Shown here: piece after piece, positions 40,182 to 52,740 of the stretch
Layout: each line of letters begins with the position of its first letter
Position numbering within the stretch: position 1 is the first letter of the stretch
Source: Deminuibacter soli
GTDB lineage: Bacteria > Bacteroidota > Bacteroidia > Chitinophagales > Chitinophagaceae
Length of the DNA: 64,000 nt
NCBI RefSeq assembly: GCF_003412455.1
Contig: NZ_QTJU01000001.1
Span: forward strand, 186,001 to 250,000
Direction of reading: 5' to 3'
The notes under the pieces: generated by a model
Seen by the model: only the letters and a program-made list of their open reading frames with translations
Database searches by the model: none
Told to the model about the DNA's origin: nothing
Position numbers and translations under genes: made by a program

Positions 40182-40949
40182 TTACTGAACAGGTAAACGC
40201 TGCACTTGCATCCGTTTAACAAGACGCACTATCCGCAACCACGCCAGCACGCGTATAGCAAGGTAAACAGGATCTATTTCGTGCCAGCGCCTGCCAAAAT
40301 TAATGGCAGCAGGATGTTTGTGGTGATTGTTGTGGAATGATTCACCCAGCATCAGCAGGTCTATAAAAAGTATGTTCATAAAAAGGTTGGTAGAAGTATT
40401 TTTGAGCCTGAAATTGGCGTATCCGTATTTGTGCGCAAACCAGTTGATGATGGCACCATGTACTGCTCCCATGGCAATAACAACAGGCAGCAGCAGGTAT
40501 AGCCAGGCGGTATGGGCAAACCAGATAAAGAAACCGGTATACAACATGGCCCACAAAAACCTGGACAAGGCACTATTAGCCCATCGGTCGAACAGCGGCC
40601 AATCCGGAAGGTTCTTTTTAAAACGTTCTTCCACCACCACCCGTTGATGCACAATATCGCGGTAAATACGCCGTGTACGCCACATCATGGCAAAAACATT
40701 ATTCGAAAAAGCAGGCGAATGCGGATCCTTCTCCGTATCGGTATAAGCATGATGCCAGCGATGCATAACGGCATATGCAGCCGGGCTCATATACGAAGAG
40801 CCTTGCGTAACGTATGCCAGTACAAAAAAGAAACGCTCCCACCCCTTGCGCATGGCAAAAGCGCCATGTGCGGCATAACGGTGCTGGAAAAACGTTTGTG
40901 AAAACAGGGATAAGTACCAGAGAACAATAAAGAAAATCAGGATAACCAT
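40182..40949 (-). CDS. Acyl-CoA/fatty acid desaturase
   Basis: This 255-residue membrane enzyme introduces double bonds into fatty acyl chains using a di-iron centre. The three histidine boxes are present: HRYAAH (23-28), HRWHH (63-67) and HNNHH (206-210). There are about four membrane helices. It is on the short side, as is common in Bacteroidota delta-9-type enzymes. Single gene; possibly linked to membrane fluidity control. Confidence 0.9.
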   Translation of the reverse strand: MVILIFFIVLWYLSLFSQTFFQHRYAAHGAFAMRKGWERFFFVLAYVTQGSSYMSPAAYAVMHRWHHAYTDTEKDPHSPAFSNNVFAMMWRTRRIYRDIVHQRVVVEERFKKNLPDWPLFDRWANSALSRFLWAMLYTGFFIWFAHTAWLYLLLPVVIAMGAVHGAIINWFAHKYGYANFRLKNTSTNLFMNILFIDLLMLGESFHNNHHKHPAAINFGRRWHEIDPVYLAIRVLAWLRIVRLVKRMQVQRLPVQ

Positions 40950-41219: not shown

Positions 41220-42695
41220 ATGTCAATTCATGTTACCATCAAAGAAACCAAGCTTACACCCGATTTTAAAAAGGTGATACCCCGCTTTTTTAATACCGGC
41301 AACGAAAGAGCGAAAATCATCATTGCCCGTGTATTACAAATGCCTGGCGATGCTGCAAAAACACTTATACGGCAAATCATCAGCGAGTTTGCACCCAAAT
41401 ACAGGCATATCGAAAGCATCTTTATCAAACACTACGGCATGGTGCAGCACCTGTTATCTCCGGATGAATCATTGCAAATAACCGGCGACAGAAAAGCCCT
41501 TATCGGCGCTTATTTCACCATGGAATATGCTATTGAAGCAGCGGCGCTGTTTAACCCGAGTATTGTAACAGATCCCGATCAGTCAAACGCATTACCGGGC
41601 GAAAAAAAAGTCATTATCAGTTTTCGGGCAACCGGTGAAAGCCATATTTCTTCCATCGTATTCAGGCATGGTTCACTGTCGGCAGAATGCCACCTCACAC
41701 TCGATCCGCCGGGAAAGTTTATGAATGAAGGGAGGATAACCAGCATAACACAACCTGACCGCGCAATAGTAGGCAATAAACTATCGCAGCTGCGCATACC
41801 GGAAGATATTCACGCACGGATACTGGAGAAGATAGGCGACCCGCTTTCATCGCATGAAATAGATACGTTGCTGAAAGATGCACTGCACGAAAACATGGAA
41901 CTGGATAAACTGAAAATACGGTACGATATACTGAAAATGGTAAACGCCAGTTACGAGATACAGTTCCCTGCTGCATCAGTACTTTCAGAACGTGTCATTT
42001 TCCCCATTACCTATGCAGAAAAAAACGGGATTGAAGACGCAAGATTTGTACGCTTTACAAACGATGATGGCAGCATCATTTACTACGCTACTTATACAGC
42101 GTTCGACGGATCTTTTATTATTCCCAAGCTTATCGAAACAAAAGACTTCCTGTGTTTTAAATTCTCCTCCTTACATGGAAAGTTTTCGGTAAATAAAAAC
42201 CTCGCGCTGTTTCCCAGGAAAATCAACGGGCAGTATGCCATGCTTTCCCGTATTGACGGAGTGAACAATTACCTCATGCTGTCAGACGACCTGTACGTAT
42301 GGGAGAATGCCGAACTGTTACAACAACCTGAATATCCCTGGGAGTTTGTACAGATAGGCAATGGCGGATCGCCTGTTGAAACGGAAAAAGGATGGCTGAT
42401 CATTACCCACGGTGTAGGGCCCATGCGCAAATACTGCCTGGGTGCTACGCTGCTCGATTTACAAAATCCGCTGGTACAGCTGGGCCGGCTGCGGCAACCG
42501 CTGTTAATGCCGAATGAAAATGAGCAGCATGGGTATGTACCCAACGTGGTGTACTCCTGCGGCTCTATTGTTCATGGCGAATATTTGTTTATGCCTTTTG
42601 CAGTATCTGATTATTCTTCCTCATTTGCCAGCATGCCGCTTTCCGCATTACTGGATGAACTGGAAGCCGTGCCTAAGTCTGCCGCCGCTCACTAA
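41220..42695 (+). CDS. GH130-like glycoside phosphorylase/hydrolase
   Basis: This 491-residue cytosolic protein has a helical N-terminal extension of about 190 residues before a five-bladed beta-propeller of the GH130 type. Propeller motifs include GIEDARFVRF, ATYTAFDG, NKNLALFPRKINGQYAMLSR, QIGNGGSPVETEKGWLIITHGVG and GYVPNVVYSCG. GH130 enzymes are mainly beta-mannoside phosphorylases. No signal peptide, so it acts inside the cell. The 3' end overlaps the convergent GT4 gene by 23 bases. The neighbouring glycosyltransferases suggest turnover of an intracellular mannose-containing glycan (inference). Confidence 0.82.
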   Translation: MSIHVTIKETKLTPDFKKVIPRFFNTGNERAKIIIARVLQMPGDAAKTLIRQIISEFAPKYRHIESIFIKHYGMVQHLLSPDESLQITGDRKALIGAYFTMEYAIEAAALFNPSIVTDPDQSNALPGEKKVIISFRATGESHISSIVFRHGSLSAECHLTLDPPGKFMNEGRITSITQPDRAIVGNKLSQLRIPEDIHARILEKIGDPLSSHEIDTLLKDALHENMELDKLKIRYDILKMVNASYEIQFPAASVLSERVIFPITYAEKNGIEDARFVRFTNDDGSIIYYATYTAFDGSFIIPKLIETKDFLCFKFSSLHGKFSVNKNLALFPRKINGQYAMLSRIDGVNNYLMLSDDLYVWENAELLQQPEYPWEFVQIGNGGSPVETEKGWLIITHGVGPMRKYCLGATLLDLQNPLVQLGRLRQPLLMPNENEQHGYVPNVVYSCGSIVHGEYLFMPFAVSDYSSSFASMPLSALLDELEAVPKSAAAH

Positions 42696-43692
42696 GTATT
42701 TGCTGATACAATTTCCGGTAGTGCGTAGCCATGCTATGCCTGCTAAACTGTGCCAATGCAGTCCTGTGACAGTTATACCGGTTAATGTGGCTGAGTTTGC
42801 CAATTGCAGCAATGGCTTCTTTGTTGTTTGTTACCAGAAAACCGGTTTTACCATGTTTAATCAGTTCTTTCATCGATCCCCTGTTAAAAGCGATCACCGG
42901 CGTGCCGCACATCAGCGCTTCGGCAACACTTAACCCAAACGGTTCGTCAAAACTGATAGGGTGCAGCAATGCCATAGCGTGGCCCAACAGGTAATTGCGT
43001 TCTTCAGGGCCAACATTGCCCCTGTACACAATATTATGTTGGTCGAGATGCGGTTTAATACGCATTTCAAAATAGTGCTCGTCCTGCACAAGACCGCATA
43101 TCAGCAGCTTTAGTCCCGTTTGCCTTGCTATTTCAATGGCATCGTGTGCGCCCTTGTGTGGATGTATGCGCCCGAAATACAACAGGTAATTACCCGGTGT
43201 TTCTTCAAAACTAAACTGGCGTTCATCAATGCCATTGTATACAGTGTCCAGGTACTGCAGCGAAGAATGCCGGTCGCTGTTGCTGATGGAAACATAATAA
43301 CCGGCAGCATTGTATTTTTGATATACAGGCAATATGTCAGGCGATGAAAAGCCATGTATGGTTGTTAATAACGGTGTTGAAATAAGTTTGGAATAGGATA
43401 ATGGAAGAAAATCATAATGATTGTGGATGAGATCAAACGATGCTGCCGTTTCCATAAGATTGGAGATATGCAGGCATTCCCACACTTTCGCATCTTTGGG
43501 TTTTTCGGCGAGCGGCGCATCACAAACATAGTTAAGTGCAGCCGCAGTAACCGAATCACCTGTGGCAAACAAGGTCACTTCTTCTCCCTGCTCAACCAGT
43601 GTTTCACACAAAACAGAAGCTACCTGCTCCCAGGGGCCATAACGGCGTGGCGGAGTACGCCAGGTAATGGGTGCGAGTATCGCAATTTTCAT
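42673..43692 (-). CDS. Glycosyltransferase family 4
   Basis: This 339-residue GT-B protein has an N-terminal Rossmann half (ILAPITWRTPPRRYGPWEQ) and the C-terminal donor half with YFGRIHPHKG and the EX7E motif DEPFGLSVAEAL followed by CGTPVIA. Retaining GT4 enzymes transfer sugars from nucleotide donors. It ends inside the convergent GH130-like gene (23-base overlap) and follows the alpha/alpha-barrel gene by 5 bases, so it is the last of a three-gene operon. Confidence 0.9.
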   Translation of the reverse strand: MKIAILAPITWRTPPRRYGPWEQVASVLCETLVEQGEEVTLFATGDSVTAAALNYVCDAPLAEKPKDAKVWECLHISNLMETAASFDLIHNHYDFLPLSYSKLISTPLLTTIHGFSSPDILPVYQKYNAAGYYVSISNSDRHSSLQYLDTVYNGIDERQFSFEETPGNYLLYFGRIHPHKGAHDAIEIARQTGLKLLICGLVQDEHYFEMRIKPHLDQHNIVYRGNVGPEERNYLLGHAMALLHPISFDEPFGLSVAEALMCGTPVIAFNRGSMKELIKHGKTGFLVTNNKEAIAAIGKLSHINRYNCHRTALAQFSRHSMATHYRKLYQQILSERRQT

Positions 43693-43697
43693 AACAT

Positions 43698-44828
43698 TTA
43701 CTCCTGTATATCCTTTAAAGTTTGTACCATTACCAAATGTGAAATCCAGTAGGCAATGGTACTTTCAGCACCCTGGTTACTATTTGCACCATCTGCCTGC
43801 AGGCCATCGCAACAACCGCCTGTAGCAGCATCATATAACGGAACGCCCACGGCATTCAACCCCAGGAACCACTGGTAACATTGCTGCATACGGAAAACAT
43901 ACTTTTTATTGCGTGTAATGCGGAAAGCCTGCTGGTACAGCAACACCATCGCCATGGCATCAATGCCCTGCTGGTCAAACACGGAGCATTGTGCACCTTG
44001 CCTGTACCATTCTGCGTTGCCAACGGGGTTTAATACGGCATCTTTCAATACAACCGATTCCAGGAAATGCATAGATTCCAGCGCCACGTCGAGGTATTGT
44101 TTATTCATGGTTATCTCAAATGCGTTCAGCAATGCAAGCGGTAATATTGCATTGTCGTAAGTGAGTATATTGTCAAACCAGTTCCACCCGTCAAGTTGAT
44201 TTGCCGTGTACCCGTGCAGCAATTTATTGGCCAGCTGTACTACGGCTTCTTCCTTTCTGTCGTCAGGATAAGTGGCCTTAATATACTGGCAGGTACCGAT
44301 AATACTGTTGGCAATTCCCCTCAGCGAAACAAGTTCGTCTACGTGTTTAAAGGCTTTTGCAAATATCTCCCTGCCGGTTTTCACCAGCAGCCGGTTATGC
44401 CCTTCGTTAATCAGGTAACCAAGCGCCAGCATGGTTCGGCCATAAGCATCTTCTGAACCATATACCTCAGCGCAGCTTTTGGTGTAACTCATAAAGTTTT
44501 TGAAATAGCCATCATCGGTTTGCATGTAATGAATAAAGCTGAGGTAAACCGGCATCAAACCATGCGCCACCGGGTCTTTTTCATGCCTGCAGGCGAATAC
44601 AGTTAACAGCAATGCACGGGCATTGTCATCTATGCAATAACCTTCTTTCCGGTTGGGCATATTGTGCAGCGCATGCTGTATAATACCTGTATTGTCAGTA
44701 AGGTTAACGATGTGATCCCAGTTAACAGCAGGCATACCTTCAGCCGCAAAAATATCCGGCTGGCTGAATGCCTGCTTTTGCCTGAGTAGCCTGGGATTGG
44801 CCATAACAGGCGTTGTTCGTTTAGTCAT
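43698..44828 (-). CDS. Putative (alpha/alpha)6-barrel glycan-active protein
   Basis: I take the Met at 44828 (MTKRTTPVM), one base after the upstream stop, giving 376 residues; the ORF ATG at 44870 overlaps that gene. The protein is helical with repeated Trp/Tyr/Asp motifs: EGYCIDDNARALL, GSEDAYGRTMLALGY, WNWFDNILTYDNAILPLAL, QQGIDAMAMVL and NQGAESTIAYW. This looks like an alpha/alpha toroid as in many glycosidases and sugar epimerases. Homologues are often misannotated as glycosyltransferases because they neighbour or fuse to them. Activity unknown. Confidence 0.7.
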   Translation of the reverse strand: MTKRTTPVMANPRLLRQKQAFSQPDIFAAEGMPAVNWDHIVNLTDNTGIIQHALHNMPNRKEGYCIDDNARALLLTVFACRHEKDPVAHGLMPVYLSFIHYMQTDDGYFKNFMSYTKSCAEVYGSEDAYGRTMLALGYLINEGHNRLLVKTGREIFAKAFKHVDELVSLRGIANSIIGTCQYIKATYPDDRKEEAVVQLANKLLHGYTANQLDGWNWFDNILTYDNAILPLALLNAFEITMNKQYLDVALESMHFLESVVLKDAVLNPVGNAEWYRQGAQCSVFDQQGIDAMAMVLLYQQAFRITRNKKYVFRMQQCYQWFLGLNAVGVPLYDAATGGCCDGLQADGANSNQGAESTIAYWISHLVMVQTLKDIQE

Positions 44829-44829
44829 A

Positions 44830-46026
44830 TTAATAGGTAGCATTGTCGGGCAATTGTTTAAAAATGCCAATATCTTCGCGCAGTATGCTAGAGAATAGTT
44901 TCACGTGTTTACGCGCCACTGTTTTCCAGATGGTATTTCTTGTTTTAAGAAAGGCCTGGTTGCCCATCTCTTTACGCACAGCATCGTTGCTGAGCAGGTA
45001 AACGGCATTTTTGACCATTTCACTGGTATTGCCCAGCTCAATAATAATTCCTGTTTCCTTGTTCAGCATTTCACGCGCCAGTACAAATGAATTTGAAATA
45101 ATTGCACAGCCCGCACTCATGGCATATAAAAATGTACCGCTCACAGCCTGGTTGGGGTCTTTGGAAGTAAACAGGTAAATATCTGTCAGCACAAGGTATT
45201 CCATCAGCTCACGCGTAGGCAGGTATTCATTAATCAGCTGCACGTGTTTTGTTAAACCGGCTGCCTGTATGCTGCGCTGCAGCTGTTTACGGTAGGCTTC
45301 TCCCTCACTGGCCAGTAAATTCGGATGCGTGTTTCCAAGCACCAGGTAACGTGCATTGGGAAATTGCCGCACAATCTCCGTCATGGCCTGTATACCTGTT
45401 TCAATGCCTTTGTTGGGACTTAGCAATCCAAATGTGGTAAGTATCAGGTTGGCAGACAGGTGATACTTTTCTTTCAGTTCACTGGCATCAGCAGTGTCAA
45501 TCAAATGTGTACCGTGCGGTATAATGGCAATTTTATGCAGGGCAACCTGGTACACATCATTTAACAGCAATGCCGAATGCTTTGTCATTACTATTACCTT
45601 TTCTGCAAGCAGTGCAATATCCTGCACTATCTTCAGCCGTTTAAGTTCGGGTGCAGGCAATACAGTATGAAAACGGATCACAAAAGGTTTCTCAATCAGC
45701 GCCAGAAAACCCAGCAGGTAGTCGCCCATATCGCCGCCATATAAACCAAATTCATGCTCAAAGCACAATAATCTGATGGAATTGTCGCGGTTAATCAATT
45801 CAGCTGCCTCCATACAGGCCTGCAAACTACTGCTGTCTATCAGTCGTACCACAGGCCACTCATATAACCCGGCATGCGCAGTTTTATCCAGTGCATACAC
45901 CAGCACTTCTGCTTCCTTTGCCAGCTCTGGCTGTAAGGCATTCAGCAAATCGCCCGCAAAACTGGCAATGCCACATTTTCTCGGCGGGAATGTGCTGATC
46001 AGCAGAATTTTAAATTTGTCATCCAT
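44830..46026 (-). CDS. Glycosyltransferase family 4-like protein with altered EX7E motif
   Basis: This 398-residue GT-B protein starts with the nucleotide-sugar fold ILLISTFPPRKCGIASFAGDL and has IPHGTHLID and FGLLSPNKG in the donor half. Where GT4 enzymes normally have EPFGxxxxEA it reads KDPNQAVSGTFLYAMSAGCAII, so the usual acidic pair is missing. It may use a different catalytic arrangement or be a regulatory homologue. It is the first gene of the operon 44830-42673 and the next start codon follows its stop by one base, indicating translational coupling. Confidence 0.85.
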   Translation of the reverse strand: MDDKFKILLISTFPPRKCGIASFAGDLLNALQPELAKEAEVLVYALDKTAHAGLYEWPVVRLIDSSSLQACMEAAELINRDNSIRLLCFEHEFGLYGGDMGDYLLGFLALIEKPFVIRFHTVLPAPELKRLKIVQDIALLAEKVIVMTKHSALLLNDVYQVALHKIAIIPHGTHLIDTADASELKEKYHLSANLILTTFGLLSPNKGIETGIQAMTEIVRQFPNARYLVLGNTHPNLLASEGEAYRKQLQRSIQAAGLTKHVQLINEYLPTRELMEYLVLTDIYLFTSKDPNQAVSGTFLYAMSAGCAIISNSFVLAREMLNKETGIIIELGNTSEMVKNAVYLLSNDAVRKEMGNQAFLKTRNTIWKTVARKHVKLFSSILREDIGIFKQLPDNATY

Positions 46027-46479: not shown

Positions 46480-49400
46480 ATGAAACCAACACTGCTTACC
46501 GGCCTCCTCATGCTTATGCTGCAGGGATGGCTGAGCGCGCAATCAATTACCGTAACCGGCATTATAACCGACACACTGCACAAACCCATCAGCGGGGTAA
46601 CCGTTAAAGCCGGTCGCCACAGCACCCTTTCACAGGAAAACGGCACGTACAGCATCGCAATAGAACCGGGCACAAAAACAATCAGCTTTTCGGCACTGGG
46701 CTATCCGCAAACTATTTTACCTGTAACCGGCCCCACGCTAGATGCAACACTGCACAGCGCAGACAATGTGCTGAATGATGTGGTGGTAGTGGGTTACGGC
46801 ACGCAGAAAAGAAACCAGGTAATCGGCTCCGTGGCCCAATTACAAGGCAGTGAGCTTAGTAAAAGAACCTCACCGCAATTAACGCAATCCATCACAGGGC
46901 AGCTGCCCGGCATCACGGTAATACAACGCTCAGGGCAGCCAGGTGCAGTGGGCGCCAGTATACAGATAAGAGGCGTGGGCTCCTTCGGCGCCGGCACCGA
47001 CCCGTTGATTGTGGTAGATGGTATCCTCGTTACCTCGCTCAACAACATCGACCCGAATGATGTGGAAACCTTTTCTGTTTTGAAAGATGCATCATCTGCT
47101 GCTATTTACGGCGCACGCGCAGCCAGCGGCGTTATTTTAATCACTACCAAAACAGGCAGGTCAGGCAAGTTCCGTATTGCATACAATGGCTACGCAGGTT
47201 TGCAAAAGCCCACCAAACTGCCCAGCTATGCCGGTTCTGCCGAGTATGCCACACTGATTAATGAAGCACAGCCAGGCTCTTACACCGATGCCCAGGTACA
47301 AAAATTCCGCGATGGCACCGATCCCGACAATTACCCCAACACCAACTGGTTTGATGCCACGTTAAAAAGCAGCGCTGTACAAACAGGGCACAATCTCAGT
47401 ATTACCAACGGCAACGAACGTTCACAATACCTGCTCTCGCTCGGTTATTTAAACCAGGGCGGCATTATTGCCAAAAACAACCTGCAGCGTTATAATGCAC
47501 GGTTCAATCTCACCAGTAACCTCTCCCGCAACCTGAAGCTTACCACCCGTTTTGCGGCCATACAGAGTTACGACAATGAGCCTTCCACTCCGGGTGGTAT
47601 GGATTACAGCACTACACAGGATATTATTGGCCAGGTAGTACGGTACAGCCCAAACTATGTAATCAGGAAAAGCGACGGCAGCTATGGCACAGGTATTAAC
47701 AATACCGGTACACCAGCCTCGGCACTGGAAAGCGCCTCATTTTACAAAGACAAAAGCACCAATCTTGAATCAAGTCTGCGACTGGAATGGACCATACTCG
47801 ACGGACTTAAATTCACTGCGCTGGCCAGCTATTCTCAGGTAAATGAAAGAACCACCTTATTCAGGGCAACACAGAAATTAACACCCACCATCACCGATCA
47901 GCCTTCCAGCTTAACCGAAGGTTTTTACAACAACAATTACAAAACCCTGCAAACCTTTGCAGAATATCACAAACAGGTACGCCGGCACGAGTTCACCATA
48001 CTTGCAGGTCATTCGTACGAAAGCGCGTATAACGAAACCAACACCTCGTTCCGCAGCAACCTGCCCGGTAACGATATCACGGTAATTGATGCGGGTGATG
48101 CCAGCACCCAATCCAATACCGGCAATGCTGCCGAATGGGCAATTGATTCTTACTTCGGGCGATTGCAATACAACTTCGCCCACAAATATTTAATTGAAGG
48201 TGTAGCCCGGCGCGATGGTTCATCCCGCTTTCCATCTACACAGAAATATGGCACCTTCCCTTCTGTGGCAGCAGGCTGGCGCATTAGCGAAGAACGTTTT
48301 TTAAAGAACCGGTTTTCCTGGCTCGATGAACTGAAACTGAAAGCATCTTATGGCACACTGGGCAACCAGAATATCGGCAACTATCCATACCAGCGCTTGC
48401 TGGCCACCGGCCACAATTATTCTTTCGGAAACACCATTGCAACCGGTGTTGGTCTCGATACTTTAACCGATAGCCAGCTGCATTGGGAAAGCACCCGCAC
48501 AAAAGACGTTGGCATCGAAGTAAGCCTCTGGAAACAATTCCTGTCGTTCACCGCCACTTACTTCGACAAGTATACGTACGATATCCTGGTAAGCCCGTCT
48601 TCCAGCGTATCCAGTGTAATAGGGCTCGCACCCGGTGTACAAAACTCGGGCAAGCTTAGCAACAAGGGCTGGGAGTTTACGGTGAATCACCGCAACACGC
48701 TCGGTAAATTTTCTTATACTGTTGGCGTTAATTTCTCTATCATCAACAATAAAGTGCTCGACCTCGGTGTGGGTAATGTAAAACAACCCAACGGACTTGT
48801 AGGCAATGGCACCAACCTGTTTATCGGGCACCCGATGAATGTATATTATGGTTATGTGGCAGACAAATTGTATGCGAACGCAGCAGATGTTACCGCTTAT
48901 ACAGCCTCAGCCAATCAAAGCGCAGTAAACCCAAAACCGCAGCCGGGTGACATACGCTACAAAGACATCAGCGGCCCGGGCGGCAAACCCGATGGCGTGG
49001 TGAACGCAGCTTACGACCGGCAGGTACTGGGCAGCACCATTCCGCACTACACCTATGGTATCAATCTCGGTGCACGTTACAGTGATTTTGATTTCTCTGT
49101 GTTATTGCAGGGTGTAAGCGGTGTAAGCGGCTATCTCAATAACTATGCAGGCTGGGCATTTTACAATACTGCAGGCATACAGCGCTGGCAGGCAGATGGC
49201 AGGTGGTCTCCCGCAAACCCCAATCCCAATGCAGCTTATCCGCGCCTGGAGTTAATTACCAACCAGGGTACACCCAATACAGCCACCTCTTCGTTCTGGG
49301 TAGTCAATGGCGCCTACCTGCGCGTGAAAAGTATTCAGCTGGGTTACAGCCTGCCTGCTTCCATCGCCAGATCGCTGGGTATTGAAGGGGCACGGTTTAA

Positions 49401-49527
49401 TCTCGCAGCAGAAAACCTGTTCACCTTTAGTCATTACCGTGAAGGCTGGGATCCCGAAGTTAATTCCAGCGGCGCTTACTATCCCATCCTGGCCAACTAT
49501 ACGCTGGGTGTTAACGTGAATTTTTAA
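46480..49527 (+). CDS. SusC/RagA family TonB-linked outer-membrane transporter
   Basis: This 1015-residue protein has a signal peptide (to about 20, LSAQS), a carboxypeptidase-like beta-sandwich (about 22-95), the TonB-box/plug start DVVVVGYGTQKRNQVIGSV, IRGVGSFGAGTDPLIVVDG in the plug, and a barrel ending TLGVNVNF. It lacks an N-terminal STN domain, so it does not signal through FecR; control must come from another regulator. It is followed 19 bases later by SusD and then two sulfatases, a polysaccharide utilisation unit for a sulfated glycan (inference). Confidence 0.95.
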   Translation: MKPTLLTGLLMLMLQGWLSAQSITVTGIITDTLHKPISGVTVKAGRHSTLSQENGTYSIAIEPGTKTISFSALGYPQTILPVTGPTLDATLHSADNVLNDVVVVGYGTQKRNQVIGSVAQLQGSELSKRTSPQLTQSITGQLPGITVIQRSGQPGAVGASIQIRGVGSFGAGTDPLIVVDGILVTSLNNIDPNDVETFSVLKDASSAAIYGARAASGVILITTKTGRSGKFRIAYNGYAGLQKPTKLPSYAGSAEYATLINEAQPGSYTDAQVQKFRDGTDPDNYPNTNWFDATLKSSAVQTGHNLSITNGNERSQYLLSLGYLNQGGIIAKNNLQRYNARFNLTSNLSRNLKLTTRFAAIQSYDNEPSTPGGMDYSTTQDIIGQVVRYSPNYVIRKSDGSYGTGINNTGTPASALESASFYKDKSTNLESSLRLEWTILDGLKFTALASYSQVNERTTLFRATQKLTPTITDQPSSLTEGFYNNNYKTLQTFAEYHKQVRRHEFTILAGHSYESAYNETNTSFRSNLPGNDITVIDAGDASTQSNTGNAAEWAIDSYFGRLQYNFAHKYLIEGVARRDGSSRFPSTQKYGTFPSVAAGWRISEERFLKNRFSWLDELKLKASYGTLGNQNIGNYPYQRLLATGHNYSFGNTIATGVGLDTLTDSQLHWESTRTKDVGIEVSLWKQFLSFTATYFDKYTYDILVSPSSSVSSVIGLAPGVQNSGKLSNKGWEFTVNHRNTLGKFSYTVGVNFSIINNKVLDLGVGNVKQPNGLVGNGTNLFIGHPMNVYYGYVADKLYANAADVTAYTASANQSAVNPKPQPGDIRYKDISGPGGKPDGVVNAAYDRQVLGSTIPHYTYGINLGARYSDFDFSVLLQGVSGVSGYLNNYAGWAFYNTAGIQRWQADGRWSPANPNPNAAYPRLELITNQGTPNTATSSFWVVNGAYLRVKSIQLGYSLPASIARSLGIEGARFNLAAENLFTFSHYREGWDPEVNSSGAYYPILANYTLGVNVNF

Positions 49528-49546
49528 TCCTCAAACAAAGTAGTTT

Positions 49547-51196
49547 ATGCAAGCACTGTTTTATATACGCCGGGGCATGCTGGCCGCAGCAACAAGCCTG
49601 CTGCTGTTCTCCTGCCGCAAAGACCTCGACAAAACGCCTCTCAGTAATTTCTCGAATGATAATTTCTGGACCAGTCAAAGCAATGCCCTCCTGGCTTTAA
49701 CAGGTGTATACCGCGGCAATATCCAGATGATTAATGCCGGTGAATTTTCTGCAACAGACTGGTGGTCGTACCACGGCCTGCTGTTCCTGGAGTTTGCCAG
49801 TGACAATGCCTATGACCGCAGGGGCGAGAACTCCGGCTTCAACACGCTCACCAATGGCACGCTCACCAATAGCAATACCTATATCAGCAATTACTGGAAC
49901 CTCAGCTACGCACGCATTGCACGCTGCAACTTTTTCCTGGAGAATGTATCCAAAGTACCGGCAGACAGTGCTTTTATAAAACGCATTGCCGCTGAAGCCC
50001 GCTTTATACGTGCCACACAATACTTTTATCTTTCGCAGTATTTTGGAGATGCACCGCTGGTAACAAAAGTGCTTACCGCAGCTGAAGCCAATACCGTAAC
50101 CAAGGCTACCAGGCAACAACTCGCTGCATTTGTAGCAACCGAACTCACTGCCTGCGTAAACGACCTGCCCCGGTTTGGTGCACTTACGGCTGCAGAAAAA
50201 GGACGCGCAAGCAAACAGGCGGCGCTGGCCTTTCTTGGCCGCATGCAATTGTCGCAGGGAGAATATGCCAATGCAGCCGATACCTATCAAACGCTTATCA
50301 ATTACAACGACAATACCATTGATCCCGATTTCAGCAGCCTGTTCGATGGCACCAATGAAAGCAGCAAGGAAATCATCTTTGCTACGCAATATGTGAAAGA
50401 CCTTGCCCCCAATGGCATGCAGCTGCACGATTACCCGGCCACCAGCGGCGGCTATCATATATTCTGTCCGCTGGGCAGCCTCGTAGAATCATTCGAGTTT
50501 AAAGACGGCACCCCTTTTTCTTATACAGATGCACGGTACAATGCCAATGATCTTGCACAAAACAGGGACCCGAGGCTGGCCTATACCGTGCTGTACAACG
50601 GTGAAAGCTTTGCAGGGCTGCCCTACACCACACATCCGGATTCAACGGCATCGGCAGACCAGCTTACCTTAACCAAACAGGCTACCCGTACCGGTTACGG
50701 CATGCGTAAGTTTAATAACCCATCGTATTACGGCAGCGCCTTATCCAACTCGGGCATTGATTTGCCTATTGTGCGTTATGCAGAAATATTGCTTAGCTTG
50801 CTGGAGGCAAAACTGGAAAACGGAGATGCGATTACACAATCATTACTCGATGCAACCATCAACAAAGTGCGTGGCAGAACATCTGTAGGTATGCCGCCGG
50901 TAACAGAAACTGACCCTGCTGCACTACGCGTAATAGTACGCCGCGAACGAAGAAACGAACTGGCATTTGAAGGATTGCGCCTGTGGGATTTGCTGCGCTG
51001 GAAAACAGCGGCGCAGGCGTTGAACGGTGATTTTTACGGAGCGCCTTATCCCGGTGCAAAAAATCTTCGTAAAAAAGGAACTGCCACCGATCCATTCGGC
51101 CGCTGGTATGTTACTACCAAAACATTCAGGGCAGGTACCGATGAAAAATGGCCCGTTCCGTTAACTGAAGTAAGTATCAATCCCAATCTGAAATAA
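49547..51196 (+). CDS. RagB/SusD family nutrient uptake lipoprotein
   Basis: This 549-residue surface lipoprotein has a lipobox LLFSC (Cys23) and the SusD pattern: KTPLSNFSNDNFW, ALTGVYRG, YARIARCNFFLENV and, near the C-terminus, RRERRNELAFEGLRLWDLLRW. It forms the lid of the SusC channel and binds the glycan at the surface. A shorter start at Met11 (49577) also keeps the signal. It lies between susC and the first sulfatase gene, 8 bases ahead of the latter. Confidence 0.95.
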   Translation: MQALFYIRRGMLAAATSLLLFSCRKDLDKTPLSNFSNDNFWTSQSNALLALTGVYRGNIQMINAGEFSATDWWSYHGLLFLEFASDNAYDRRGENSGFNTLTNGTLTNSNTYISNYWNLSYARIARCNFFLENVSKVPADSAFIKRIAAEARFIRATQYFYLSQYFGDAPLVTKVLTAAEANTVTKATRQQLAAFVATELTACVNDLPRFGALTAAEKGRASKQAALAFLGRMQLSQGEYANAADTYQTLINYNDNTIDPDFSSLFDGTNESSKEIIFATQYVKDLAPNGMQLHDYPATSGGYHIFCPLGSLVESFEFKDGTPFSYTDARYNANDLAQNRDPRLAYTVLYNGESFAGLPYTTHPDSTASADQLTLTKQATRTGYGMRKFNNPSYYGSALSNSGIDLPIVRYAEILLSLLEAKLENGDAITQSLLDATINKVRGRTSVGMPPVTETDPAALRVIVRRERRNELAFEGLRLWDLLRWKTAAQALNGDFYGAPYPGAKNLRKKGTATDPFGRWYVTTKTFRAGTDEKWPVPLTEVSINPNLK

Positions 51197-51204
51197 TTCC
51201 TGTA

Positions 51205-52740
51205 ATGAAAAAACACACGCTTGCAATCGGCGCCTTTTTATGCCTGGGTTTTACAGCCTGCAGCCAGCAAAAGCCCAATATTGTTTTTATTTATGCAGAC
51301 GACCTTGGTTATGGCGACCTCGGCTGTTATGGCGCCACACAGGTGCATACGCCCAACATTGACCGCCTCAGCAAAAACGGGCTGCGCTTTACCAATGCAC
51401 ACGCCAGCTCTGCTACCTGCACGCCTTCCCGTTATTCCATTTTAACAGGCCAGTATGCCTGGCGAAAGGCAGGTACCGGCATTGCGCCCGGTGATGCAGC
51501 TGCATTAATAAAACCCAACCGCACTACCTGGCCTTCTGTTTTAAAACAGGCAGGTTATACCACCGCAGCCATTGGCAAATGGCATCTTGGTTTGGGCGAA
51601 GATGGGAAAGGGCCAGACTGGAACAACGAGATAAAACCAGGGCCGCTGGAAATAGGATTTGATTATGCCTATTACATGCCCGCCACTTTAGACAGGGTGC
51701 CCTGCGTGTATGTAGAGAATCACCGCGTGGTTAACCTTGACCCGGCAGATCCCATCACAGTAAGTTATAAAAATCCCATTGGCGACTGGCCTACCGGTAA
51801 AGACCATCCTGAGTTGCTGAAAATGCAATCATCACCCGGCCATGGTCACAACCAGACCATTGTAAACGGCATTGGCCGTATTGGTTATATGACCGGCGGC
51901 AAAGCTGCTTTGTGGAATGATGAAACGATTGCCGACACACTGGTTGCCAAAACGCAAAACTTTATACGCCTGCACAGCAGCCAACCCTTCTTTGTATACC
52001 TGGCAACCGGCGATATTCATGTGCCGCGCGATCCCAATAACCGTTTTAAAAACAAGAGCGGGCTGGGCGCCAGGGGCGATGCTATTCTGCAGCTGGACTG
52101 GACAGTGGGCGAAGTGCTCAAAACGCTGGACAGTTTGCAGTTAACACAGAATACCATTATTATTGTTACCAGCGACAACGGCCCTGTGGTAGACGATGGT
52201 TACCAGGATGGCTCTGTAGAAAACCTCGGCACACACAAACCCGCCGGTGAACTGCGCGGCGGCAAATACAGCGCTTTTGATGCAGGCACACGTGTTCCGT
52301 TTATTGTGCATTGGCCCAGGCAGGTTAAGCCAGGTGTATCCGCTGCATTGATCAGCCAGATAGATTTACCCATCTCTTTTACATCGTTTACACACCAATC
52401 GATACCCGCAGGCGAAATGCCCGATGGCTTTGACATGACGAATGTATTGCTCGGCCGCTCACAAAAGGGCCGCACCAGCGTTATTGAACACGCAGGCACA
52501 CTCGCGATTATTGAAGGCGACTGGAAATACATTAAACCAGGCAAAGGCCCGCGTATCAACAAGCTGGTAAACATTGAGCTGGGCAACGATGAACAGCCGC
52601 AGCTGTATAACCTGAAAACAGATATCCGTGAGCAGCACAATGTAGCGGCACAACATCCTGACATCACAGCAAAACTTGCAGCCAGCCTGCAACGCATAGA
52701 GGAATCAGCCAGTGAAAGAAATATCGCTTCTTCAAAATAA
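51205..52740 (+). CDS. Sulfatase (S1 family), lipoprotein
   Basis: This 511-residue formylglycine-dependent sulfatase has a lipoprotein signal (FTAC, Cys19). Metal-site aspartates are in YADDLGYGD (32-33), and the active-site motif C-x-P-S-R is at 72-76 (TCTPSR, Cys72 to be converted to formylglycine). IGKWHLG and TSDNGP complete the site. It removes sulfate esters from a carbohydrate, presumably the ligand of the adjacent SusC/SusD. Subfamily cannot be fixed by eye. Four bases separate it from the next sulfatase start. Confidence 0.93.
   Translation: MKKHTLAIGAFLCLGFTACSQQKPNIVFIYADDLGYGDLGCYGATQVHTPNIDRLSKNGLRFTNAHASSATCTPSRYSILTGQYAWRKAGTGIAPGDAAALIKPNRTTWPSVLKQAGYTTAAIGKWHLGLGEDGKGPDWNNEIKPGPLEIGFDYAYYMPATLDRVPCVYVENHRVVNLDPADPITVSYKNPIGDWPTGKDHPELLKMQSSPGHGHNQTIVNGIGRIGYMTGGKAALWNDETIADTLVAKTQNFIRLHSSQPFFVYLATGDIHVPRDPNNRFKNKSGLGARGDAILQLDWTVGEVLKTLDSLQLTQNTIIIVTSDNGPVVDDGYQDGSVENLGTHKPAGELRGGKYSAFDAGTRVPFIVHWPRQVKPGVSAALISQIDLPISFTSFTHQSIPAGEMPDGFDMTNVLLGRSQKGRTSVIEHAGTLAIIEGDWKYIKPGKGPRINKLVNIELGNDEQPQLYNLKTDIREQHNVAAQHPDITAKLAASLQRIEESASERNIASSK

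Follow-up and report, generated by a model that had tools for sequence, protein, structure and literature searches.

We analyzed a stretch of 64,000 nucleotides from Deminuibacter soli (contig NZ_QTJU01000001.1, positions 186,001-250,000 of the forward strand), hereafter the window, in which four adjoining genes at 41,220-46,026 encode a GH130-like protein, two proteins with a GT4 glycosyltransferase fold (GTa and GTb), and an alpha/alpha-barrel protein. The GH130 gene lies on the plus strand (41220-42695; 491 amino acids, aa) and matches Pfam PF04041 (E 1.3e-27; 97 bits vs the curated cut-off of 26). It converges on a minus-strand run in the order GTa, barrel, GTb. GTa (44830-46026; 398 aa) is a GT4-fold domain with a non-canonical, conserved donor site, the barrel protein counts 376 aa from its ATG (43698-44828), and GTb (42673-43692; 339 aa) is a GT4 glycosyltransferase with a complete donor site and a relative of the glucosylsucrose synthase TeGSS. 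Both GT4 genes match Glycos_transf_1 of Pfam (E 2.7e-26 and 8.3e-16); the Pfam matches of the barrel are all sub-threshold. The barrel ATG, upstream of which its mechanical open reading frame (ORF) begins at TTG 44870, is separated from the GTa stop by 1 base (44829), and the GTb start lies 5 bases (43693-43697) from the barrel stop. The GH130 and GTb genes overlap convergently by 23 bases (42673-42695). These ORF coordinates and Pfam matches agree with the first-pass annotation of this DNA, which had described two GT4-like genes and a barrel gene converging on a GH130 gene with the same gaps and overlap. The overlap was rejected as meaningful, being unremarkable within the spacing of -53 to +298 across 43 convergent GH130/GTb pairs. 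No signal peptide is visible by eye at the four N-termini; the first-pass annotation had called all the proteins cytosolic.

That annotation had proposed a survey of genomic neighbourhoods and had named a lack of conserved linkage as one of two outcomes that would refute its reading. The linkage is present. A scan of contigs with the barrel alignment returned at least 581 relatives, and the best 80 were retained as loci chosen by the barrel alone. A GH130 gene lies within 5 kilobases (kb) of the barrel in 73 of these 80 loci, and GTb in 52. Pooled with 23 further loci, the counts within 5 kb are 95/103 for GH130 and 66/103 for GTb; the added loci are not independent evidence, because GH130 had been their selection criterion. 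Among 117 genomes of the same family, 19 carry the long form of GH130 found in the window, 18 near full length and one cut at a contig end. In 14 of the 18, the window's own genome counted, GTa, barrel and GTb converge on the long GH130; two others have a fused GT4-barrel gene and no GTb, in another the fused gene lies about 7 kb away, and the last has no clear barrel gene.

At the level of the phylum (395 genomes; strong match, E<=1e-40 for barrel and long GH130; loose barrel limit, E<=1e-10), a strong barrel match occurs in 74 genomes, long GH130 in 56, and both in 47. The loose barrel match (90 genomes) covers all 56 long-GH130 genomes, 47 with strong and nine with distant matches, and long GH130 is found in 0 of the 305 genomes without a barrel match; a Fisher's p is not meaningful as such here, because the genomes are related. 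The two genes lie within 5 kb in 26 of the 47 genomes with both strong matches and within about 11 kb in three more. Another 27 genomes have a strong barrel match without long GH130. Twenty of these were opened around the barrel, and a short GH130 is adjacent in 18; among the remaining seven, genome G021 has the pair (locus L051), and the six others, three of them from genus g143, were not opened at the barrel. Collectively, the linkage of barrel and GH130 is far beyond chance and not a local accident. Its core is a GT4 domain plus the barrel, usually in one fused protein of about 750 aa, beside GH130.

Outside Bacteroidota, plasmids from Alphaproteobacteria, from a fusobacterium, and from a Deinococcus carry the core as well. 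Among the plasmid records searched, 27 match the barrel and 31 match long GH130 over >=80% of the query. Of 16 plasmid loci opened, 12 contain a fused GT4-barrel gene and an annotated GH130, and in 7 of these 12 a mannose-6-phosphate isomerase, mannose-1-phosphate guanylyltransferase or phosphomannomutase gene directly adjoins the pair. The plasmids of S. amiense and S. yanoikuyae SHJ carry, in a row, groES, groEL, guanylyltransferase/isomerase, class I isomerase, fused GT4-barrel, GH130, and phosphomannomutase; a guanylyltransferase/isomerase stands beside the pair in three other loci and an isomerase in two. On the Deinococcus plasmid, a GH130-like gene without annotation as such ('hypothetical protein', L183:10233-11204; 239 bits with the short-GH130 model) comes after the fused gene and a GTb. 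The remaining opened loci comprise two with a long GH130 and no fused gene in view and one with the barrel alone. Chaperone genes occur within the opened stretch in 5 of the 12 loci, all five among the seven with mannose-activation genes.

In the plasmid islands of L186 and L194 (Sphingobium), L185, L187, and L193, the mannose operon is joined by GroES/GroEL genes, or by DnaK/GrpE and Usp genes. Two of these islands, L187 and L193, have a Dps gene in addition and a TIR-domain gene upstream.

The best solved relatives of the window GH130 by profile are Teth514_1788, Teth514_1789, and Lin0857 (E 3.9e-43, for Teth514_1788, to 5.6e-35), all named as beta-1,2-mannoside phosphorylases. Its structural model (predicted local distance difference test, pLDDT, 83.7) is a five-bladed propeller with added helical sequence in two places and aligns with phosphorylases at Z 35-36 and with 7fir at Z 35.9. 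Residues were counted in 88 long sequences, from which five fragments of 182-236 aa had been removed beforehand. N112, R136, E272, D273, K326, R344, H397, Y405, and D464 are unchanged in 88/88. In the alignment to Teth514_1788, R344 and H397 line up with the phosphorylases in 88/88 and K334 is basic in 87/88; from this alignment, we take the three residues to bind phosphate. The catalytic Asp is preceded by Glu throughout (E272/D273 in the motif GIEDAR), as in the GH130_NC type, a feature whose significance is treated in passages of PMC4264767 and PMC4599007. The passages on BT3780 in PMC4599007 single out Lys199 as probably determining beta-1,2 specificity and describe hydrolases as having lost the basic residues. 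The equivalent of Lys199, placed via a BT3780-like paralogue of the same genome, is K326 of the window protein; short GH130s have Lys at this column in 7/18 and Arg in 11/18. These features make the window GH130 a predicted beta-1,2-mannoside phosphorylase/synthase. Together with the mannose-activation genes on plasmids, which are an independent line, they support a mannose-based substrate.

The first-pass annotation had given this protein a unique N-terminal domain. Extra N-terminal sequence relative to short GH130s is indeed there, and it is only part of the difference, since a second insertion spans about 145-236. Residues 1-89 are unpaired in the sequence alignment, with helices at 28-98 in the model, and the second stretch contributes helices at 181-241. 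The structural alignment begins at residue 1 and the sequence alignment does not, so the N-terminal stretch may sit either before or inside the first propeller blade. Moreover, three of the 88 long GH130s (L040:9258-11120, L045:8656-10518, and L049:8909-10768) bear a C-terminal extension resembling a response-regulator receiver domain (Pfam on L040 only). At L136, L140, L167, and L170, GH130 is directly preceded on its own strand by genes for a histidine kinase (Pfam on L170) and a response-regulator-like protein (by eye). Two further GH130 genes lie in the window's genome: one encodes a BT3780-type protein, and the other, at a separate site, stands directly beside an epimerase-like gene, the latter recognized by eye (L066:8721-9911; L067:7247-9620). 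The BT3780-type paralogue is without the His397 equivalent and the basic residue at 334, and it has Lys at the Arg column, where the alignment is shifted.

The GT4-barrel alignment holds 107 sequences, two fragments (506 and 552 aa) having been excluded. GTa and barrel share a single reading frame in 99 of these and are separate in eight, the window included. The window GTa matches the Pfam group 1 glycosyl transferase domain at 58.4 bits vs the cut-off of 26.4, and PF00534 is matched at E<=0.001 in 23/23 aligned members. Its donor-site columns were matched by two profile alignments, the second of which is weak (probability 81%). At the position of the diphosphate Arg, GTa has Leu in 73, Phe in 28, and Ile in six of the 107 sequences, while the Lys is kept in 107/107. 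The second Glu of E-x7-E, which contacts ribose in GT4 enzymes, is Tyr in 107/107. The first Glu position reads Glu in 87, Pro in 15, Lys in four, and Gln in one, and a Gln two residues beyond is invariant. Judged by these residues, GTa does not have the Arg/Lys pair and E-x7-E of a canonical nucleoside diphosphate-sugar GT4 enzyme. The strict conservation of the altered site argues against decay, and a changed donor is one explanation that the sequences would allow. In addition, trees of the GT half and the barrel half over the same 107 loci disagree. In the GT tree, the window's group of eight joins six loci with short GH130 and no GTb (support 0.993), whereas the nearest neighbours of this group in the barrel tree, L179, L101, L153, and L175, are all GTb-containing loci. 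Given this conflict, the split form appears to have arisen by exchange of the GT half between two lineages, while the two genes stayed together as a pair.

The barrel model (pLDDT 90.5) has YPO2471 (7tem) as its best fold match (Z 38.9, root-mean-square deviation 2.6, 335 residues, 19% identity), and the profile match to the same protein reaches E 6e-20. Next, at about equal Z of ~30-31, come cellobiose 2-epimerases, GH9-like proteins, and a mannanase of GH76. D67, D68, D127, D341, and E355 are invariant across 22 barrel sequences. The barrel is the predicted glycosidase half of the GT4-barrel pair. Narrower assignments were tried and rejected: the Pfam matches to GH88, C5-epimerase, and GH127 are all below curated cut-offs, and GH76 has a fold Z of ~24-30, with its catalytic Asp pair not located on the model and with AGE epimerases and GH9-like chains reaching similar scores. 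Six opened loci contain barrel relatives of 417-453 aa with both short and long GH130 and no GTa; four of these relatives (L223, L224, L228, and L230) have N-termini that look exported by eye, and among these loci L228 has an ABC transporter and L230 a GH2 gene (Pfam). This arrangement suggests that the barrel breaks a bond in the mannoside handled by GH130. At L223:4598-7084, a GH94-superfamily gene, a possible phosphorylase, adjoins the exported-barrel and GH130 genes.

GTb matches TeGSS (7fg9) over its whole length (phmmer E 2.3e-70). Unlike GTa, it shows the complete diphosphate Arg/Lys and E-x7-E set: Y18, R175, K180, E250, and E258 are kept in 66/66 sequences. The passages of PMC9909042 on the TeGSS donor site list Y18, R179, K184, and E256 as diphosphate-binding residues, and their equivalents are unchanged in all 66 GTb sequences. 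The position of Trp10, which stacks on fructose in TeGSS according to the same passages, is Ala in 56, Thr in eight, Ile in one, and Ser in one, without any Trp; W11 is invariant and could substitute for it. GTb is absent within 5 kb of 37/103 loci, and none of the 14 opened alphaproteobacterial loci gave a GTb match.

From the gene content, the linkage across four phyla, the GH130 residues, the predicted folds, and the altered GTa site, we infer the reactions, their direction, the product with its linkage and donor, and its physiological role as follows. On balance, and with odds slightly in its favour, we read the cluster as encoding a cytosolic cycle for the synthesis and breakdown of a mannose-containing oligosaccharide. 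Mannose-6-phosphate would be converted to mannose-1-phosphate and on to guanosine diphosphate (GDP)-mannose, or mannose-1-phosphate would serve directly, to supply mannosyl units. A GDP-mannose supply is plausible in the window's genome, which has one ManC-type match. GT4 is a retaining glycosyltransferase family, so the GT4 proteins should make alpha bonds, and they may lay down or extend a primer through them. GH130 would add or remove beta-1,2-linked mannose, with alpha-mannose-1-phosphate as donor or product. Within the same oligosaccharide, the barrel would hydrolyse a bond that its GT4 partner had made, and since this hydrolase is normally fused to GTa, maker and breaker would be physically coupled. 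Together, the four proteins could cycle a small soluble mannoside or a short mannan. In some lineages, chaperone or two-component genes accompany the set, so the product would probably be a solute for stress or a reserve that can be rapidly mobilised.

Several observations weigh against this cycle. The GH130 reaction is reversible, and phosphorylases are usually taken as degradative. The altered donor site of GTa speaks against a simple GDP-mannose scheme, and the passages on TeGSS, the closest solved relative of GTb, give uridine diphosphate (UDP)-glucose and sucrose as its substrates (PMC9909042). No stress or mannose-activation gene was recognized by eye adjoining the window cluster. On plasmids, 5 of the 12 loci have no isomerase, guanylyltransferase or phosphomannomutase adjacent (an AGE-family epimerase gene is present in two of the five and absent from three), and the Deinococcus locus is likewise without them. 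Furthermore, the seven loci with mannose genes are not independent, because three sphingomonad loci resemble a single island and another two a second one. The stress link, drawn from chaperone neighbours on plasmids and from ClpB and Ku neighbours in Bacteroidota (gene clusters within three genes in 8/103 and 10/103 loci, mostly Pedobacter; Pfam on one member each), was counted without a control and is suggestive only. The linkage also has exceptions. GH130 is missing within 5 kb in 7 of the 80 barrel-chosen loci, two of which are cut by contig ends. In 18 of the 47 genomes with both strong matches, the genes are unlinked, on different contigs in 14 and more than 1 Mb apart in four; 13 of the 18 belong to genus g108, in which the four genomes opened at the barrel have a short GH130 beside the fused gene instead. 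Of the 20 genomes opened for their strong barrel without long GH130, two, both from genus g143, have no adjacent GH130. The mannose-type reading of the first-pass annotation is partly supported, by the mannose-activation neighbours on plasmids and by the phosphorylase and beta-1,2 signatures of GH130; the reserve or stress solute that it named would be a candidate product.

The same genes could instead serve salvage, in which GH130, with the barrel, would degrade beta-1,2-mannosides taken up or turned over, mannose-1-phosphate would become GDP-mannose, and the GT4 proteins would spend it elsewhere, with no dedicated store. Passages of PMC4264767 describe the precedent in Thermoanaerobacter, where two GH130 beta-1,2-mannoside phosphorylases beside a mannose-1-phosphate guanylyltransferase and a GT4 were proposed to salvage GDP-mannose, and loci of uptake type, in which the barrel stands with GH130 and to which L228 adds an ABC transporter, also speak for it. 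However, no transporter was recognized by eye within the window cluster, no sugar importer appears among the identified frequent neighbour clusters (rare neighbours being unannotated), the near-constant fusion of GT4 to barrel does not fit, and salvage would leave unexplained why plasmid loci with the set also contain chaperones and genes for making activated mannose de novo. We consider salvage unlikely, while taking it seriously.

Two further explanations place the product elsewhere. GT4 enzymes are common in pathways for surface polysaccharides and glycolipids, and sub-threshold NCBIfam matches of the cluster include exopolysaccharide GT4s, so that the GT4 proteins might assemble such a glycan while GH130 and the barrel trim or recycle its precursor; the absence of export or priming genes among the identified recurrent neighbours, many neighbours being unannotated, and from the annotation beside the plasmid operons makes this improbable to us. 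A glucose-based solute would follow if GTb acted like TeGSS, transferring UDP-glucose onto a sucrose-like acceptor, with mannose as only one residue or absent. The whole-length match and the retained diphosphate-binding residues are in line with this, as is a second pair, a GT4 with a GH100/GDE_C-like gene, near the GT4-barrel gene in 5/105 loci (L144, L162, L164, L165, and L177; Pfam on one member each). However, the Trp10 position is occupied by other residues in every GTb sequence, and GTb is missing from many loci, among them the alphaproteobacterial ones, where mannose genes often adjoin; we regard the glucose solute as very improbable.

The oligosaccharide cycle can be extended into a bacterial counterpart of mannogen. 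GTa would have abandoned nucleotide sugars for alpha-mannose-1-phosphate, a donor pool shared with GH130, and the fused barrel would hydrolyse the product. In some species, the receiver-GH130 fusions would place the store under direct two-component control, and the set would spread on plasmids as a stress-tolerance package. We hold this extension to be quite unlikely as a whole. If the cycle is real, bacteria would possess a widespread intracellular mannose-based solute or store that has so far gone unnamed, its genes bearing no more specific label in the plasmid records than 'glycosyltransferase family 4' and 'glycoside hydrolase family 130'; the substrate pool could be read from the complete plasmid operons. 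The GT4-barrel protein would then combine maker and breaker in one chain, its donor site differing from that of canonical GT4 enzymes, and in the GH130-receiver fusions a sugar phosphorylase would be directly linked to a two-component domain.

Around the window cluster, a fatty-acid-desaturase-like gene (40182-40949, by eye) is a neighbour, and a counterpart at L038:11501-12223 is 64% identical. An annotated desaturase (L188:9709-10749) also lies near the GT4-barrel-GH130 pair of a Sinorhizobium plasmid, with a cold-shock gene further along. On the other side, a SusC/SusD-like pair starts beside the cluster, followed by a sulfatase-like gene (46480-52740, by eye), and looks unrelated. A promoter scan found 12 sites vs 11.3 expected, and terminator-like sites number 9 vs 5.8 expected (sd, standard deviation, 2.3). 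A role in anti-phage defence was rejected, the four proteins being without a PADLOC match.

No description of the GT4-barrel-GH130 set was found in the open-licence literature searched, a scope that leaves subscription papers and preprints outside it; in a paper on an ammonia-oxidising archaeon GH130 (PMC6657660), the word 'glycosyltransferase' is absent from the main text. The best fold match of the barrel, YPO2471 (PDB 7tem), is named a 'putative exported protein', whereas the window barrel appears intracellular by eye and is tied to a GT4. The secreted beta-1,2-mannosidases BT3780 and BACOVA_03624, in the passages of PMC4599007 describing them, share with the window protein the GH130 fold and the lysine read as beta-1,2 determinant; they are hydrolases without the basic phosphate residues, whereas the window protein keeps these and has no signal peptide by eye. 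The glucosylsucrose synthase TeGSS/alr1000 resembles GTb over the whole length and in the diphosphate-binding residues, and its product increases when cells face salt or heat stress according to passages of PMC9909042. Unlike this enzyme, GTb lacks the Trp stacking on fructose, and the neighbours of the window set point to mannose. The Thermoanaerobacter cluster of Teth514_1788 and Teth514_1789, the closest solved homologues of the window GH130, likewise places a beta-1,2-type GH130 beside a GT4 and a mannose-1-phosphate guanylyltransferase; as described in passages of PMC4264767, it has ABC transporter genes and a GH5, whereas the window GH130 has its two extra helical stretches. The nearest known store, going by passages of PMC8950772, is the mannogen of Leishmania, a beta-1,2-mannan turned over by propeller enzymes (GT108) that are fold-related to GH130. 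GT108 aligns with the window GH130 at a lower-ranking fold Z of ~21-22, no GT108 is among the profile matches at E<=0.001, and the passages describing mannogen mention no GT4-barrel partner. Collectively, GH130-based mannoside turnover is already known from these systems, and the GT4-barrel pairing, the altered donor site, and the plasmid operons are new.

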